35,221 nt of DNA, from the IMG/VR virus record IMGVR_UViG_3300026544_000013, positions 1 to 35,221 of that record; one strand, 5' to 3'. The DNA comes from a virus. The translations under genes were made by a program, and so were the position numbers. A model generated the notes under the pieces. The model was not told the DNA's origin. It ran no database searches and saw only the letters and a program-made list of their open reading frames with translations. Positions 8,780 through 35,221 of the stretch are shown here, piece after piece; position 1 is the first letter of the stretch, and every line of letters starts with the position of its first letter.

Positions 8780-10288
8780 TTAATCCTCCATTTTATTATG
8801 TTTGAAGAAGCGATCAATTCTGCTTTCTTCATGACTTTCGTCAGTGTTAACAATAGTTGTTTCAACTTCTTCAGAATTATCTGCATCAGTTGAATCTGTT
8901 AATGTTTCGTTATTTACTTTAGGAATCGAAGTAGCAGTATCATTTCTATAATCAGAAAGTGTATCTACCAAGCTATCAATTTTCCGTGAAGTAAATTTAG
9001 TTATTTCTTCATCGCGATTATCAACAATATGTTTATAATCTAAAATGTTATTAATAATTGCTTTCTTATAACCAACAGTAGCTGTAGCGTTATCGTCAAG
9101 TAATTTATTAATTTCATCTTCTTTACTAATTAGTATAGTACTTTGTTTAGTAATCTCATCAGATAAAAGAGTTTCTTTTTCTTTCAAAGACTCAATAGCA
9201 TCAGTTAAAGTTTTAACTTCAGATACGAGAAAGTCGCAGTAAGAAATAATTTCATCTTTTTTACCTTTAATGATTGTTTCATAATCATCAATTGAAAATT
9301 CTACTTTAGTTTCATCTTCAGTAGTTTCTTCATCTTCAGTAGTTTCTTCATCAGAAGGAAGATCAGCATCTTTATTCTCATCAAAGAATGATACGATGAT
9401 TTTAGTTTCATCTTCAGTGAACTCATCATCCATTCTAAATGCTAATACTTCAGCATCATCTGTTAAAATATCAAAGCGCTTACCTTTACGGTAAAGAGCA
9501 CCTTTAATTTTATTTTTAATAGCATCATCTATATCTTCCATAGTATCTAGTAATTTTAATCCTGCTTTAACATGAGCTTCATCATGTGCTGGAAAACTTT
9601 TACTAGGACCACAAAAAACTGAGTCAGCCAATTTAGCACGATCATCCGCACTAAGTTTACCCTTTTTTGTCATATCATCCTCCATAAAAAAGTCTGTTAA
9701 TATGTCTTCCTTATCACTAAGGAAAGTTTCGTAAGCCATTGACCCATCACCTAAATCAATAGAAGTAATTCTAGAGAATGGATCAGCAGGATTATTTACG
9801 AATGAGTTTTCTTTATATTCAATTGCGTCAATTATCCAATAAGCTTTTTTGCCATCGTACATTTGACCTTTTTCGTGTTCACATAATCCATCAGTTGTAA
9901 GTGATTGATTACATATAGAACATCGAACTTTGTTAGTAGAACTACCAACACTACATGTTAGATAAATTCCTTTAATAACATTAGCAATAGCATCTTCATC
10001 AGTAATCTCTACTGATAGTTCCACGAAATCTTTTGGTTCATTTTCCATAGTAGGAGTATCTTTGATTTCATAACCATCAATACGACCAACTGCATCTCTA
10101 TGTTTATCATGATGAAGTAATTGAGGTTTCTTATAAGGAGTAACCCACGTTTCACCACCACCATTTTTAATAGCATCTAATGTATAATAAAGATTATTAC
10201 CATTCACATAATTTAAGTGAGTTGCACTAATACCTACTTTGATACTATCAAGTTTTTCAATTAGGTCATTAATATTTTTCTTCATCAT
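8780..10288 (-). CDS. Prohead protease-scaffold fusion
   Basis: A 502-residue protein starting MMKKNINDLIEKLDS after GGAGCTTA. Residues 55-115 fit a herpesvirus-assemblin-like (S78/U9-type) prohead protease: a His cluster LLHHDKHRDAVGRIDGY (H59-H63) and a candidate nucleophile in TCSVGSS (S113). Residues 123-138 form a C-x2-C...C-x-H zinc-knuckle-like insertion (CSICNQSL, then CEHEKGQMYDG). CGPSKSFPAHDEAHV at 226-240 is a motif often seen in phage head-assembly proteins. From about 300 the protein is acidic and coiled-coil, as expected of scaffold, and should be degraded during maturation. It overlaps the portal gene by 20 bp. The order portal, protease/scaffold, capsid is canonical. The catalytic assignment is by pattern only. 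Confidence 0.72.
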   Translation of the reverse strand: MMKKNINDLIEKLDSIKVGISATHLNYVNGNNLYYTLDAIKNGGGETWVTPYKKPQLLHHDKHRDAVGRIDGYEIKDTPTMENEPKDFVELSVEITDEDAIANVIKGIYLTCSVGSSTNKVRCSICNQSLTTDGLCEHEKGQMYDGKKAYWIIDAIEYKENSFVNNPADPFSRITSIDLGDGSMAYETFLSDKEDILTDFFMEDDMTKKGKLSADDRAKLADSVFCGPSKSFPAHDEAHVKAGLKLLDTMEDIDDAIKNKIKGALYRKGKRFDILTDDAEVLAFRMDDEFTEDETKIIVSFFDENKDADLPSDEETTEDEETTEDETKVEFSIDDYETIIKGKKDEIISYCDFLVSEVKTLTDAIESLKEKETLLSDEITKQSTILISKEDEINKLLDDNATATVGYKKAIINNILDYKHIVDNRDEEITKFTSRKIDSLVDTLSDYRNDTATSIPKVNNETLTDSTDADNSEEVETTIVNTDESHEESRIDRFFKHNKMED

Positions 10289-24726: not shown

Positions 24727-24891
24727 TTAGTCCCACTCAATCCAATCTATATTGTCTAATGTATCTGGTTGCTCTAACGCTGGTCGTTTAACACTATTAT
24801 CTACAGCAACAATAGATGGACCAATTATTAATACACAACCAATTAATATAAATAATAATAACCACAATATTATAGCTACAATATTATTCAT
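24727..24891 (-). CDS. 54-residue single-TM protein
   Basis: Start chosen at ATG 24889-24891 (MNNIVAIILWLLLFILIG) because AGGTGAAG precedes it and the ATG overlaps the lipoprotein stop (ATGAATAA). A longer frame reaching 24987 has no SD and lies over the lipoprotein gene. One TM helix at 4-25 is followed by an acidic tail (ALEQPDTLDNIDWIEWD). ILIGC at 15-19 is a weak lipobox-like match but sits within a longer hydrophobic stretch. Part of the lipoprotein cluster; function unknown. Confidence 0.6.
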   Translation of the reverse strand: MNNIVAIILWLLLFILIGCVLIIGPSIVAVDNSVKRPALEQPDTLDNIDWIEWD

Positions 24892-25207
24892 GTTCTTCAC
24901 CTGTTTTATTCTTAATATTAACATCAGTATCCACATCAGTTGTATGCTCAGAGTTATCAATATGTTCTCGTGATCTATCATCACCATTAATAACTTTTGT
25001 TTGTTCCACTATTTTAGTTTCTTCTTCTAGATATCTAAAATCTTCTTGCATTACTTTTTCCATAGTGTGCGTTGATGTATTATTTGGTGTACTAGCTACA
25101 TTTACTTTGTTATTTGGAATAATAACCATTTTAGACATAGTTCCGTTTAGATTATATGTCGTAGTGCAAGCTGTTATAAATAACAATAATAATAATGTTT
25201 GTTTCAT
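24884..25207 (-). CDS. Phage lipoprotein B, 107 aa
   Basis: Start chosen at ATG 25205-25207 (MKQTLLLLLFITACTTTYNL) because it gives a complete signal peptide with lipobox ITAC (Cys14). A longer frame to 25321 would put the hydrophobic core internally. SD AGGT lies upstream. The mature protein is soluble, with a conserved middle (TMEKVMQEDFRYLEEETKIV) and a Thr/Asp/Asn-rich, acidic end. It is clearly paralogous to the protein encoded just upstream at 25212-25568. Surface or periplasmic lipoproteins of phages often act in superinfection exclusion or as outer-membrane spanins; neither is proved here. Confidence 0.75.
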   Translation of the reverse strand: MKQTLLLLLFITACTTTYNLNGTMSKMVIIPNNKVNVASTPNNTSTHTMEKVMQEDFRYLEEETKIVEQTKVINGDDRSREHIDNSEHTTDVDTDVNIKNKTGEEHE

Positions 25208-25211
25208 AATA

Positions 25212-25568
25212 TTACCTATGTACTTCCACGTCAGTATTAACTTCTGTCTCATGTTTAGAATCATTTTTCTTAACCCTCGACTTATCATTCCCACCAACAT
25301 CTTTTGAATTATCTGTACCATTTACAATTTTAGTATCCTCAGTTATTTCAGTTTCTTCTTCAAGAAATTTGAAATCTTCCTGCATTATCTTCTCCATTGT
25401 AGATGCTACATTAGAGTTAGAACTAGAGCTTTCCGTTGTTGTTGGTGCGCTCTGTATATTAACTCTCGTATTAGGTGTTATTATAGCTTTAGTTGGACCA
25501 TCAAAATGGTAGTTAGTTGTGCATGATACTATTATTAATAACACTAACATTTTAAAAGTGAGTATCAT
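25212..25568 (-). CDS. Phage lipoprotein A, 118 aa
   Basis: A 118-residue protein starting MILTFKMLVLLIIVSCTTNY after GAGATAATATA; its ATG shares one base with the preceding stop (TAATG). The signal peptide ends with lipobox IVSC (Cys16). The mature part contains YHFDGPTKAIITPNTRVNI, then a Ser-rich linker, then TMEKIMQEDFKFLEEETEIT, matching the neighbouring lipoprotein over most of its length, and a charged Lys/Asp/Glu end. The pair arose by tandem duplication, the copies are well diverged, and both keep the lipobox, so both are probably functional. Role unknown; see lipoprotein B. Confidence 0.75.
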   Translation of the reverse strand: MILTFKMLVLLIIVSCTTNYHFDGPTKAIITPNTRVNIQSAPTTTESSSSNSNVASTMEKIMQEDFKFLEEETEITEDTKIVNGTDNSKDVGGNDKSRVKKNDSKHETEVNTDVEVHR

Positions 25569-31864: not shown

Positions 31865-32095
31865 CTAACGTTCATTATTTATTACTTCTAATTCATATAT
31901 TACACTGTCTATATCATAATCACTAACCATTAATATCTCTACTATATCTGATAGCTCTCTAGACAACATAGGACTATCTATTTCACCGATATAATCACTA
32001 ATTAATGCTATGGCTTCAGTTACTTGAGATTGGGCCGTATTAGGACTATCTATTGCTGCATATAATACACTTAATATTCTATCTAATTCATTCAT
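31865..32095 (-). CDS. Small acidic helical protein, 76 aa
   Basis: A 76-residue protein starting MNELDRILSVLYAAIDSPNT, with AAGGAA upstream. Entirely helical and acidic (AIALISDYIGEIDSPMLSRE, DIVEILMVSDYDIDSV). First gene of the leftward block, preceded by a motif at 32114-32130 and the non-coding junction. It could be an adaptor or chaperone for the fibre genes after it, but no family was recognised. Ends with TAG. Confidence 0.6.
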   Translation of the reverse strand: MNELDRILSVLYAAIDSPNTAQSQVTEAIALISDYIGEIDSPMLSRELSDIVEILMVSDYDIDSVIYELEVINNER

Positions 32096-32130: not shown

Positions 32131-32447
32131 GGATATATCATATAGTTCTATTATACGCTCTTTAGTGTTTTTTATATGGTTTATTTTATCTTGGGGTTTG
32201 TCGTAGTGTTCTCTTACCCTTATATGTATTGTATATAATATTTTTTATGCGTGGCAAAAAATATCACTTTATATATATCACAGCTAAACAGCCCACCCCC
32301 TCTTTTTATACCTGTTGTGGTGTTCATTAACGGTATATAGGGTTTTTGAATATTTTATAAGTACCAAGTTATTTTATATAATATGTTAGCTGAAGTTCGC
32401 TTCGTGCCCACGGTGTGTTATATAATATTCGTATTTTTATTAATTTT
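32131..32447. other. Non-coding divergent junction
   Basis: About 320 bases without a convincing gene, between the leftward virion block and the rightward cassettes. It holds three plus-oriented copies of TATATAATAT (32232, 32375 and 32419), which contain TATAAT, a C-rich patch (about 32291-32302), a short GCT/AGC hairpin beside it, and a GAAG-TTCG-CTTC hairpin (32392-32403). It is likely a promoter region for the rightward genes. An origin or other replication role cannot be excluded; no iteron array is seen. Confidence 0.5.
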
Positions 32448-32463
32448 ATAGTCAGGAGACTAT
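32448..32463 (+). promoter_or_regulatory. SD-in-loop hairpin, cassette 1
   Basis: ATAGTC (32448-32453) pairs with GACTAT (32458-32463) around a loop AGGA, so the SD AGGAG straddles loop and stem base. The ATG follows at 32465, a 6-base spacing from AGGAG. Equivalent hairpins precede 33831, 34115 and 34554. Confidence 0.6.
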
Positions 32464-32464
32464 C

Positions 32465-33319
32465 ATGTTTACAGTTTTATTAGTATCAGTTGTTCTTGTT
32501 GTATCAGTTGTATCAGTATCTATTAATGTAGTATCAGAAAAGGAGTTCACTATGTGGACAGTTATCAAGAGTGTTGTAGAAGCAGTAGTTGTAGGTTGTT
32601 ATGTCGTTATGTTTGCGATTGTTGAAGAGACTATGCTTGGTAGTGTATTGTATGTACCTATTGTAGCATCTATTGTATTCATAGCTTATGTTATGATTCA
32701 ATTAAACAAAGAACAGAACAGAGTACTAGTAGCATCAGTGTTTGTTGCATGTATGGTTTATGTTGTGTGGGTGTGTATTAGTGTGATGGGTGCTGCTATC
32801 AATGATACTAGTGACTTTGCTTATACCATTACTGCTGTAGTAGGTAGTAGTGTGCTTGCTAGTGTGGCTGGTAGTATGGCTATTGCTATCATGTTCTATA
32901 TAGTTAAGGCTATACAGGGCATGGGTGGTGATATGGGTATGTATACTGATATTAGTTATATGGGTATGTGTACTGACATTAGTGATATGGGTATGTGTAC
33001 TGATATCTCTACTATGGGTGACTCATGTCAATGGTTCAGTGGTATTGCATTTAAACTCTCATTCCAAGAGGGCGCAAAGAAACAAGACATGTGGAATACA
33101 GTTACTAGCAGAGCTCTATACAGCGACATTGAGTATAATGAGTATAATGGATATACTGTACACAATGCATATACACTAATGGCTGATGAAGAAGATGTGT
33201 ATGGTGACATGCAAGAGGATATGATACAGAGTGCTATTAGTAATCATATGACTATTGTTAAGGCTAAGTCATTAAAAGCACGTTCAAGACAAGGACGAAA
33301 TGACAAAAACAGTAAGTAG
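32465..33319 (+). CDS. Multi-pass membrane protein with 10-residue repeats, 284 aa
   Basis: A 284-residue protein starting MFTVLLVSVVLVVSVVSVSI. Five hydrophobic segments are visible, near 3-24, 34-50, 58-77, 82-104 and 118-150. Residues 155-185 are a 10-residue tandem repeat (MGMYTDISYMGMCTDISDMG), followed by a soluble basic C-terminal domain ending in Lys/Arg. An in-frame second start exists at Met30, preceded by AAGGAG (32540-32545), so two products are possible. First gene of the rightward cassettes. Function unknown; a membrane-acting host-takeover or exclusion protein is one option. Ends with TAG. Confidence 0.65.
   Translation: MFTVLLVSVVLVVSVVSVSINVVSEKEFTMWTVIKSVVEAVVVGCYVVMFAIVEETMLGSVLYVPIVASIVFIAYVMIQLNKEQNRVLVASVFVACMVYVVWVCISVMGAAINDTSDFAYTITAVVGSSVLASVAGSMAIAIMFYIVKAIQGMGGDMGMYTDISYMGMCTDISDMGMCTDISTMGDSCQWFSGIAFKLSFQEGAKKQDMWNTVTSRALYSDIEYNEYNGYTVHNAYTLMADEEDVYGDMQEDMIQSAISNHMTIVKAKSLKARSRQGRNDKNSK
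32929..33018 (+). repeat. 30-bp tandem repeat encoding 10-residue units
   Basis: Three 30-base units encoding MGMYTDISYM, GMCTDISDM-like and GMCTDISTM-like blocks. Imperfect, so they are ageing duplications. Copy number is a candidate for strain variation. Confidence 0.7.
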
Positions 33320-33341
33320 CATTATTGTTAATCTCTATTTG

Positions 33342-33361
33342 GTGTCTTTTAATTAAGGCAC
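33342..33361 (+). terminator. Weak hairpin after cassette 1
   Basis: GTGTCTT (33342-33348) pairs with AAGGCAC (33355-33361), with one wobble, around TTAATT. It lies 22 bases past the stop at 33319. No U-run follows, so it may be a 3' end stabiliser and not a terminator. Confidence 0.35.
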
Positions 33362-33462
33362 TAATATAGGTATTAATAATTGTTATAGACTATACTCGAT
33401 AAAGACTTTAATTTAAAGTGAAATAAGTACGTATAGATAATAACGCAACGAAAGGATTTACT

Positions 33463-33741
33463 ATGCAATATGCTGGTAAAGGTGCAGTAAAAGTGATTTC
33501 AGAAAACAATTTTTATACAATAACTTATATGGGTTTGTTTGATCCATCTAAAAGTATAAAATGCATTCCAACTGAAATTAATATCGAAGAAATCAAAGGA
33601 TTGTTTGCTAAAAATGATTCTGATGATTTCGAGGTGTTTATGAATTCAATTGGTTATGCTTCTAATTCTCAAAACTCAATGCCTAATACTCGCTATATGG
33701 AGTTGAATGGTTGGGAAGTAAGATATAACACAGTAGGTTAA
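33463..33741 (+). CDS. Unknown soluble protein, 92 aa
   Basis: A 92-residue protein starting MQYAGKGAVKVISENNFYTI after AAAGGA. Mixed alpha/beta, with a hydrophilic Asn/Ser-rich end (YASNSQNSMPNTRYMELNGW). The only cassette gene whose SD is neither in nor next to a clear hairpin. The 140-base gap upstream has AT-rich, promoter-like sequence (TATACT at about 33391) and a short ACTTT/AAAGT repeat at 33405-33419. No family recognised. Confidence 0.6.
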   Translation: MQYAGKGAVKVISENNFYTITYMGLFDPSKSIKCIPTEINIEEIKGLFAKNDSDDFEVFMNSIGYASNSQNSMPNTRYMELNGWEVRYNTVG

Positions 33742-33768
33742 GTAACAAGTCCTGAGTAACAAGTCCTG
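33741..33768 (+). repeat. Two-copy 14-bp tandem repeat
   Basis: AGTAACAAGTCCTG occurs twice in a row (33741-33754 and 33755-33768), starting at the last base of the stop codon of the 92-residue gene. It may be a duplicated regulatory site or a recent slippage product. Confidence 0.7.
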
Positions 33769-33813
33769 AGTATGACTATAAAGTGCTCATTTCCCTTATT
33801 TTTATTAATTGAT

Positions 33814-33828
33814 TAGTCAAGGAGACTA
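33814..33828 (+). promoter_or_regulatory. SD-in-loop hairpin, cassette 3
   Basis: TAGTC (33814-33818) pairs with GACTA (33824-33828) around AAGGA. ATG at 33831. The surrounding leader is closely similar to that of cassettes 1 and 4, although the encoded protein is unrelated. Confidence 0.55.
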
Positions 33829-33830
33829 TT

Positions 33831-34049
33831 ATGAAAGATTCAAAGAAATTAGTTACAGTGTTTACAAAAGTTGGTTCAGTAGTGTATTCAAATGGATTAT
33901 TGATTGGTATGCTTAGTGGTGATCTCTTTACTCACTATTATGATTCAACTAGGTCTCGTGAAGAGTACATCCGTGTCCGTTCATGTATTACAAATGCTGT
34001 TATTCTTAGTCTTTACTCTAATGATGAAGTTCATTATTACGTAAACTAA
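33831..34049 (+). CDS. Unknown soluble protein, 72 aa
   Basis: A 72-residue protein starting MKDSKKLVTVFTKVGSVVYS. Alpha/beta, no TM helix, with a Cys at about 53 and a basic middle (YDSTRSREEYIRVRSCITNA). The leader including its SD hairpin is shared with membrane cassettes 1 and 4, but the coding sequence is not. This suggests that leaders and reading frames recombine as separate modules. Function unknown. Confidence 0.6.
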   Translation: MKDSKKLVTVFTKVGSVVYSNGLLIGMLSGDLFTHYYDSTRSREEYIRVRSCITNAVILSLYSNDEVHYYVN

Positions 34050-34098
34050 GCGACCTTATCATCACACACATTTCCCGTATTCTATTTTTTTTATTTAT

Positions 34099-34112
34099 TA
34101 GTCAGGAGACTA
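34099..34112 (+). promoter_or_regulatory. SD-in-loop hairpin, cassette 4
   Basis: TAGTC (34099-34103) pairs with GACTA (34108-34112) around AGGA, ATG at 34115. Same sequence and spacing as cassette 1 except for one stem pair. Confidence 0.6.
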
Positions 34113-34114
34113 TT

Positions 34115-34462
34115 ATGTTTACAGTTATTTTGGTATCAATTGTTGTTGTTGTTGTTCTTGTTATCGTATCATTGAAGAAGTTTAATGTTGCTGCAGAAGA
34201 AGTTATTGTTAATGGCTCAATTTGGGCTAACAATGAAGCTAATGCTGAGCTACTACACGGCTTAAGTTTCATGACGATAGAGAAATATAACACCTATGAT
34301 ATGTATGCTAGGAAGATTAAAACACTTCAAGCACAACATACAGGTATGGTATATATCAGTATGACTCATGAGCGTGCAGAAATACTAATGGCGACAGCTA
34401 ACAATAAAGGTATTTCAGAAGTATGCATCAGTACATATGCAGAGTTAGGTTATATCTGTTAG
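34115..34462 (+). CDS. Single-TM cassette protein, 115 aa
   Basis: A 115-residue protein starting MFTVILVSIVVVVVLVIVSL, followed by KKFNVAAEEVIV. One N-terminal TM helix at 3-20 and a soluble domain of about 90 residues (LLHGLSFMTIEKYNTYDMYA, AQHTGMVYISMTHERAEILM). The N-terminal module and its DNA are paralogous to those of the genes at 32465 and 35079, while the soluble domain differs. Topology: short N-terminus, one helix, large domain on one side. Function unknown. Ends with TAG. Confidence 0.65.
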   Translation: MFTVILVSIVVVVVLVIVSLKKFNVAAEEVIVNGSIWANNEANAELLHGLSFMTIEKYNTYDMYARKIKTLQAQHTGMVYISMTHERAEILMATANNKGISEVCISTYAELGYIC

Positions 34463-34474
34463 TATATAAGACCC

Positions 34475-34514
34475 ATCCCCTAAGACGTATGCGGGGATTC
34501 AACAAATTGCATAC
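34475..34514 (+). ncRNA. H-type pseudoknot candidate in a 5' leader
   Basis: Stem 1 pairs ATCCCC (34475-34480) with GGGGAT (34493-34498). Stem 2 pairs GTATGC (34487-34492) with GCATAC (34509-34514). The stems interleave, stacking directly with no base between them, with loops of 6 and 10 bases, the latter A-rich. It lies 12 bases past one stop codon and 39 bases before the next ATG. The geometry is that of a classic H-type pseudoknot; activity is unproven. Confidence 0.5.
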
Positions 34515-34535
34515 ATGGTATCCAAATACAAATAT

Positions 34536-34551
34536 TAAGCTTAGGAGCTTA
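34536..34551 (+). promoter_or_regulatory. SD-in-loop hairpin, cassette 5 (different stem sequence)
   Basis: TAAGCT (34536-34541) pairs with AGCTTA (34546-34551) around TAGG, ATG at 34554. The stem is different from TAGTC/GACTA, yet the loop again shows the SD (AGGAG) with a 6-base spacer to the ATG. This is covariation-type support for the structure. Confidence 0.6.
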
Positions 34552-34553
34552 CA

Positions 34554-34922
34554 ATGTTAGAATTTCTTACAAATCTCGTTATCTCTCTTTCACTCATTGC
34601 AGCAGCATCGTTACTTATTAAGTCTATTGACTATAGTAAGACTACTGGCACCATAAGAACGGGTGTAGCAATCATTCTATTCATCATGGCCATTGGTGTA
34701 GGACAAGAAGTAGAAGGAGGAGAAGTAGATACTGCAAGTTATGTTGTAGTAGAAATTCTTCCTGGTTCATATCTTACGTTCAATGTCAATGATGTAAAAT
34801 TTACCAACGAGGCAGTATATATCAAACTAACTCAGCAAGAACGTCATATGTATTTTAACATGGAGCGTGCTGAGTATAAGATGTTTATTTCATTTGTCTA
34901 TAACTCTAGATATAAGAAGTAG
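34554..34922 (+). CDS. Two-TM cassette protein, 122 aa
   Basis: A 122-residue protein starting MLEFLTNLVISLSLIAAASL. Two likely TM helices, at 4-23 and 38-53 (VAIILFIMAIGVGQE), then an acidic and beta-rich soluble domain (ASYVVVEILPGSYLTFNVND, VYIKLTQQERHMYF). Its N-terminus does not match the Met-Phe-Thr module. SD AGGAG lies in a hairpin loop, and the pseudoknot candidate lies upstream, so it may be regulated translationally. Function unknown. Ends with TAG. Confidence 0.65.
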   Translation: MLEFLTNLVISLSLIAAASLLIKSIDYSKTTGTIRTGVAIILFIMAIGVGQEVEGGEVDTASYVVVEILPGSYLTFNVNDVKFTNEAVYIKLTQQERHMYFNMERAEYKMFISFVYNSRYKK

Positions 34923-34966
34923 CAAACAGTATTATCACACACATTATAATCCCCAATTAAGGGAAG

Positions 34967-35032
34967 ATAAGTATAATTAAGCTAAGGCAGTATAGCATGT
35001 ACTAGGTACAGTTAGTCTATCATTATACTTAT
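34967..35032 (+). ncRNA. Long structured element before the last cassette
   Basis: A perfect 11-bp outer stem, ATAAGTATAAT (34967-34977) with ATTATACTTAT (35022-35032), encloses CTAA/TTAG (34982-34985 and 35012-35015) and an apical TGTAC-TAG-GTACA hairpin (34998-35010). It forms an extended imperfect stem-loop in the leader of the last gene. Role unknown: riboswitch-like, RNA-processing or protein-binding site. Confidence 0.45.
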
Positions 35033-35046
35033 TGTTATTTTAATCC

Positions 35047-35063
35047 ACTAGATATATTCTAGT
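35047..35063 (+). promoter_or_regulatory. Hairpin next to the SD of the last cassette
   Basis: ACTAGA (35047-35052) pairs with TCTAGT (35058-35063) around TATAT. Here the SD AAAGG (35066-35070) lies just 3' of the hairpin, not in its loop. It differs from cassettes 1, 3, 4 and 5 in this. Confidence 0.4.
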
Positions 35064-35078
35064 AGAAAGGTAGACATT

Positions 35079-35221
35079 ATGTTTACACTTATTATTTTGG
35101 CTATTATGGCTATCGTTGTTTCAGTTATTAGTATTTCAGTTGTTTCATTTAACAAGGAGGTTGTTGTGGATGTGGATATGTTCGCAGCGGCAGGTCGTTA
35201 TTTCATTGGAGAGTCATATGC
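35079..35221 (+). CDS. Cassette protein with TM module (partial, 3' end off the right edge)
   Basis: Starts at ATG 35079 (MFTLIILAIMAIVVSVISIS, then VVSFNKEVVVD) with SD AAAGG 8 bases upstream. One TM helix at 3-24. In-frame GTG at codon 30 (35166) is preceded by AAGGAGG with a 5-base spacer, in the same position as the internal start of the gene at 32465. The soluble part continues beyond the window. Paralogous N-terminus with 32465 and 34115. Function unknown. Confidence 0.6.
   Translation, partial: MFTLIILAIMAIVVSVISISVVSFNKEVVVDVDMFAAAGRYFIGESY

Follow-up and report, generated by a model that had tools for sequence, protein, structure and literature searches.

The right end of this phage record raises the question of whether a short membrane anchor, placed at the start of several genes, is followed by a second start, so that one gene could give both an anchored and an unanchored protein. 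The window that was analysed is the whole viral record of 35,221 bases and represents part of an uncultured tailed phage of the contractile-tail type. The PHROGs families that were matched include tail sheath, major head protein, portal, terminase, and dUTPase. Relatives of the terminase were identified in eight viral contigs (56-77% identity) and none were found in bacterial genomes. The structural block is encoded on the minus strand. Six plus-strand genes extend from 32465 to the right end, and they are divergent from the structural block with an AT-rich gap between them.

The plus-strand genes and their leader-anchor repeat

Gene A (32465..33319, plus strand) encodes an orphan polytopic membrane protein of 284 residues where codons 1-25 form the MFT anchor module. 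About five helices are predicted for the full protein and four if the start is codon 30, according to a single-sequence model of low confidence. Gene A also holds three tandem 27-nt repeats at 32928-33019 (plus strand) that encode MGM(Y/C)TDIS-type units. Gene B (34115..34462, plus strand) encodes 115 residues that consist of the MFT anchor, with its helix at residues 2-27, and a small mixed alpha/beta domain (low-confidence model). Gene C (35079..35221, plus strand) has an anchor-like MFT N-terminus and is cut by the window end with 47 codons visible.

The preliminary description placed open reading frame starts at 32465, 34115, and 35079, each with MFT and a Val/Ile/Ser-rich helix before the proteins diverge, and these coordinates are correct. 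It also proposed one common module for the three genes, which holds for genes A and B. The leader and anchor repeat unit of gene B (34085..34152, plus strand) shows 85% identity over 68 nt to 32435-32502. This repeat takes in 30 nt of leader, and 25 of 30 upstream bases are identical between both genes. The N-termini of A and B share 13 of 30 residues (p=0.00015) and 10 of 27 residues beyond MFT (p=0.016). In contrast, neither the comparison of A with C beyond MFT (5 of 27 residues, p=0.52) nor that of B with C (7 of 27, p=0.17) is better than shuffled residues, and the similarity of copy C beyond MFT is not above codon shuffles either. Three-way homology is unproven since copy C matches only in MFT and general hydrophobicity. 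The identity across both leader and helix indicates a duplicated leader-anchor cassette in A and B. The swap-in anchor that was offered as an alternative is therefore sustained for these two copies, whereas copy C matches only in MFT and composition. The swap-in anchor and the idea of two protein forms are mutually compatible.

No meaningful match was found in Pfam and PHROGs for any of the six plus-strand genes, nor among NCBIfam profiles for the four that were tried. The Rfam and tRNA scans gave no match, and the promoter and terminator scans gave no signal above shuffle level. Relatives of the genes at 32465, 34115, 34554, and 31032 were not found in viral contigs. The plus-strand genes tried against a collection of annotated phages, by protein and by DNA, had no match, and those searched in related phage records had no relatives there. 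The leader-plus-MFT DNA patterns were not found in viral contigs, and the leader-MFT pattern had no match in eight related phage records. By synteny, the related record G002 has a homologue of the gene at 31865 at its right end and no MFT genes past it. The leader alone gave nine matches in viral contigs. Six of them, which precede a frame of 15 codons or sit at the end of a contig, look coincidental within coding sequence; the other three are single occurrences in unrelated contigs.

Candidate internal start sites in genes A and C

The internal site of gene A (32540..32554, plus strand) consists of the SD AAGGAG at 32540-32545 (codons 26-27), a 6-nt spacer, and ATG at 32552, which is codon 30. 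The internal site of gene C (35154..35168, plus strand) consists of the SD AAGGAGG at 35154-35160 (codons 26-28) and GTG at 35166, which is also codon 30. The earlier claim of AAGGAG with an in-frame ATG or GTG exactly at codon 30 in two of the three genes was thus reproduced in its positions. For the middle gene, the claim that a strong internal site is lacking stands, but its AAG AAG occupies codons 21-22 and not codons 26-27.

The pattern AAGGAG-N6-RTG occurs four times in the window (two ordinary gene starts and the internal sites of A and C) against 0.55 expected, and none of 100 shuffles reaches four. Predicted pairing with the 16S tail has a median of -6.15 kcal/mol over the 42 assigned starts that were scored and of -1.5 kcal/mol over 414 start-like codons that lie internally and in frame. 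No other scored codon of the window has predicted anti-SD pairing as strong as the codon-30 GTG of gene C (-12.0 kcal/mol). The codon-30 ATG of gene A scores -8.2 kcal/mol and is near the top, behind the gene C site and a few others that are mostly codons beside assigned starts, probable genuine starts, or the protease site (see below). When both genes were recoded synonymously with their proteins fixed, a strong codon-30 site arose in both A and C in 0.8% of trials. When codon order was shuffled instead, two of the three MFT genes shared the position of a strong site in 0 of 3000 trials. An early strong site (codons 15-60) is found in only 3 of 317 other open reading frames (about 1%) from the window and related phages. 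Inside both A and C, an SD and an in-frame start thus stand at functional spacing and above background. The chance tests on the codon-30 sites were chosen after the pattern had been seen. The internal ribosome-binding sites of A and C are unusual and exceed chance, as seen in the rank of their SD strength, the recoding and shuffle rates, and their rarity.

We tentatively favour dual translation, with confidence a little short of even, in which A and C would each be made both with the anchor and, in a shorter form, without the first helix. The idea of two forms gains from the initiation signals (SD strength, spacing, and rarity) and is a prediction from sequence only. The local fold near the internal start of gene C, from a model that ends at the window end, has the GTG paired, which counts against dual initiation, as does the lack of a strong internal site in gene B.

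A chance origin combined with membrane topology is somewhat less probable but still has to be weighed. The Lys-Glu residues after the helix would be encoded by AAG and GAG codons that happen to spell an SD before Met or Val, and only full-length proteins would be made. Lysine is expected past the helix because positive residues keep that end cytoplasmic, and AAG and GAG make up 47% and 43% of their codon choices in the plus-strand genes. Unselected recoding still puts a strong site somewhere in codons 9-60 of both genes in 3.6% of trials, and the pattern was picked after looking. This origin is at odds with the shared codon position of the sites in A and C, with the strength ranking, and with the rarity of such sites in related phages.

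A programmed translation pause is unlikely. The SD-like element at codons 26-28 would slow the ribosome during targeting of the first helix and no second product would be made. In Escherichia coli, membrane proteins have been reported to show an enrichment of programmed SD-linked pauses over codons 16-36 (Fluman et al. 2014, PMC4359368); the sites of A and C both fall within this range and both genes open with a helix. However, a pause would not require the start codon that each site has at optimal spacing; start-like codons make up about 9% of codons in the MFT genes. Gene B also has the same helix but not the element. The chance and pause readings both stay live because no homologue was found.

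Leader hairpins and the proposed cassette

The SD-loop hairpins in four neighbouring leaders and the location of the first ATG of gene C in a stable hairpin are new in this analysis. Of the five fully visible plus-strand genes, four have a leader hairpin of 5-6 bp whose loop contains the SD, and two different stem sequences occur among them. The leader hairpin of gene A is ATAGTC-AGGA-GACTAT (32448..32463, plus strand) and that of gene B is TAGTC-AGGA-GACTA (34099-34112, plus strand). The gene at 33831..34049 (plus strand) has the same leader, with the hairpin TAGTC-AAGGA-GACTA at 33814-33828. The leader and the helix are separable parts because this gene carries the leader without the MFT module. 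The orphan neighbour gene at 34554..34922 (plus strand) also has a loop SD, but its stem is different (TAAGCT-TAGG-AGCTTA, 34536-34551). Each of the four hairpins has p of 0.002-0.03 against flank shuffles, and the whole-leader folds, with z of -0.1 to -1.6, are within the range expected from composition. Taken together, the minus-strand genes exhibit no excess of SD hairpins (1 of 27 below 0.05). The SD is also in a hairpin loop with 6-bp stems at the minus-strand starts 24619 and 22274 (ATAAAC-TTAGGAG-GTTTAT and ATTTAT-TAGGAG-ATAAAT).

Regulation by RNA binding, in which a host CsrA/RsmA-type protein or a phage repressor would bind the GGA-loop leaders, and perhaps the internal GGA, and block initiation, could explain the loop SDs on two different stems but is highly improbable given that the internal sites form no significant hairpins (p 0.29 and 0.07), that the leader folds are ordinary, and that a CsrA gene was not found in the window or four related phage records.

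The first ATG of gene C is preceded and covered by a double hairpin (35044..35090, plus strand; -13.2 kcal/mol, z -3.6), and the SD of this first start is the weak AAAGG (pairing -4.9). The codon-30 GTG of gene C is a plausible main start since the first ATG would be folded away in a stable hairpin and its SD is weak.

Under dual translation, the plus-strand genes would be phage-specific accessory genes, divergent from the structural block and on the other strand. A short unit, an SD-bearing hairpin leader sometimes joined to an N-terminal membrane helix, would have been duplicated before unrelated proteins and would act as an expression-and-anchor cassette; the repeat is seen in the sequence of A and B, and we infer it for C. 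The second ribosome-binding site just past the helix of A and C would let ribosomes start at codon 30, and each mRNA would then give the anchored protein and a form minus its first helix. A fuller version is decidedly unlikely, namely that the cassette, as a duplicated hairpin leader and helix on different accessory proteins with a ribosome-binding site just past the helix, programmes both the amount of protein and its split between membrane and cytoplasm. If dual translation from these genes is real, a phage would have a modular way to obtain an accessory protein both bound to the membrane and free from a single gene, and membrane anchors would join the parts that are reused by phages.

The prohead protease gene and comparison with known systems

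The prohead protease gene (8780-10288, minus strand) has a putative nested start at its codon 206, with GGAGGA-N4-ATG and the ATG at 9673-9671. The aligned ATG and GGAGGA are kept in the four overlapping relatives (L026, L010, L029, and L019), down to 47% protein identity, and the site ranks first among 7-11 internal start-like codons in each of them. A separate profile, phrog_16160, matches the protease from residue 210 at profile position 2. Codon 206 is probably a nested in-frame start, and as a predicted internal start it is better supported than the sites of the MFT genes. Its conservation points to the use of internal in-frame starts in this phage group, and it serves as an example of a conserved internal start signal in the group. 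For uncultured phages, ranking by SD strength can flag candidate nested starts, and the conserved protease site offers a comparison. At 8886 (minus strand), the start of the longest open reading frame is probably placed too far upstream, and codon 37 (GGAGG-N6-ATG, MAINNFG...) is the likely one.

The preliminary description likened the MFT genes to dual-start holins, and this comparison is weak. The likeness is that in both cases a membrane protein of a phage could be started in frame at either of two places near its N-terminus. The first helix is present in both the S107 and the S105 form of lambda, which are two residues apart in length, whereas 29 residues and the entire first helix would be lost here. 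No holin family match was found for A or the cut gene C in Pfam, PHROGs, and NCBIfam, and gene A, with its size and number of predicted helices, is unlike the small holin families of one to three helices. No endolysin was found among the proteins searched (a subset of the open reading frames) and no lysis neighbour was found on the plus strand; candidate lipoprotein and small membrane genes are located on the minus strand at 23.3-25.6 kb. Two overlapping short open reading frames at 24884-25568 (minus strand) have similar lipoprotein-like N-termini (CTTxY) and the common pattern MEKxMQEDFxxLEEET, and are perhaps a tandem duplication.

The C and Nu3 proteins of lambda are in-frame nested products where the short form is the C-terminal part of the gene, and the protease site looks like a nested scaffold start of this style. 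The Rpn intragenic antitoxins are nested in the same manner (PMC10327210). Genes A and C resemble both systems in that an internal ribosome-binding site would give a shorter protein in the same frame, here judged from sequence alone, but only the N-terminal anchor module would be dropped. They also resemble the SD-like pause elements (PMC4359368) in having an SD-like sequence within codons 16-36 of a membrane protein; in contrast to those elements, the sites of A and C also carry an in-frame start at optimal spacing.
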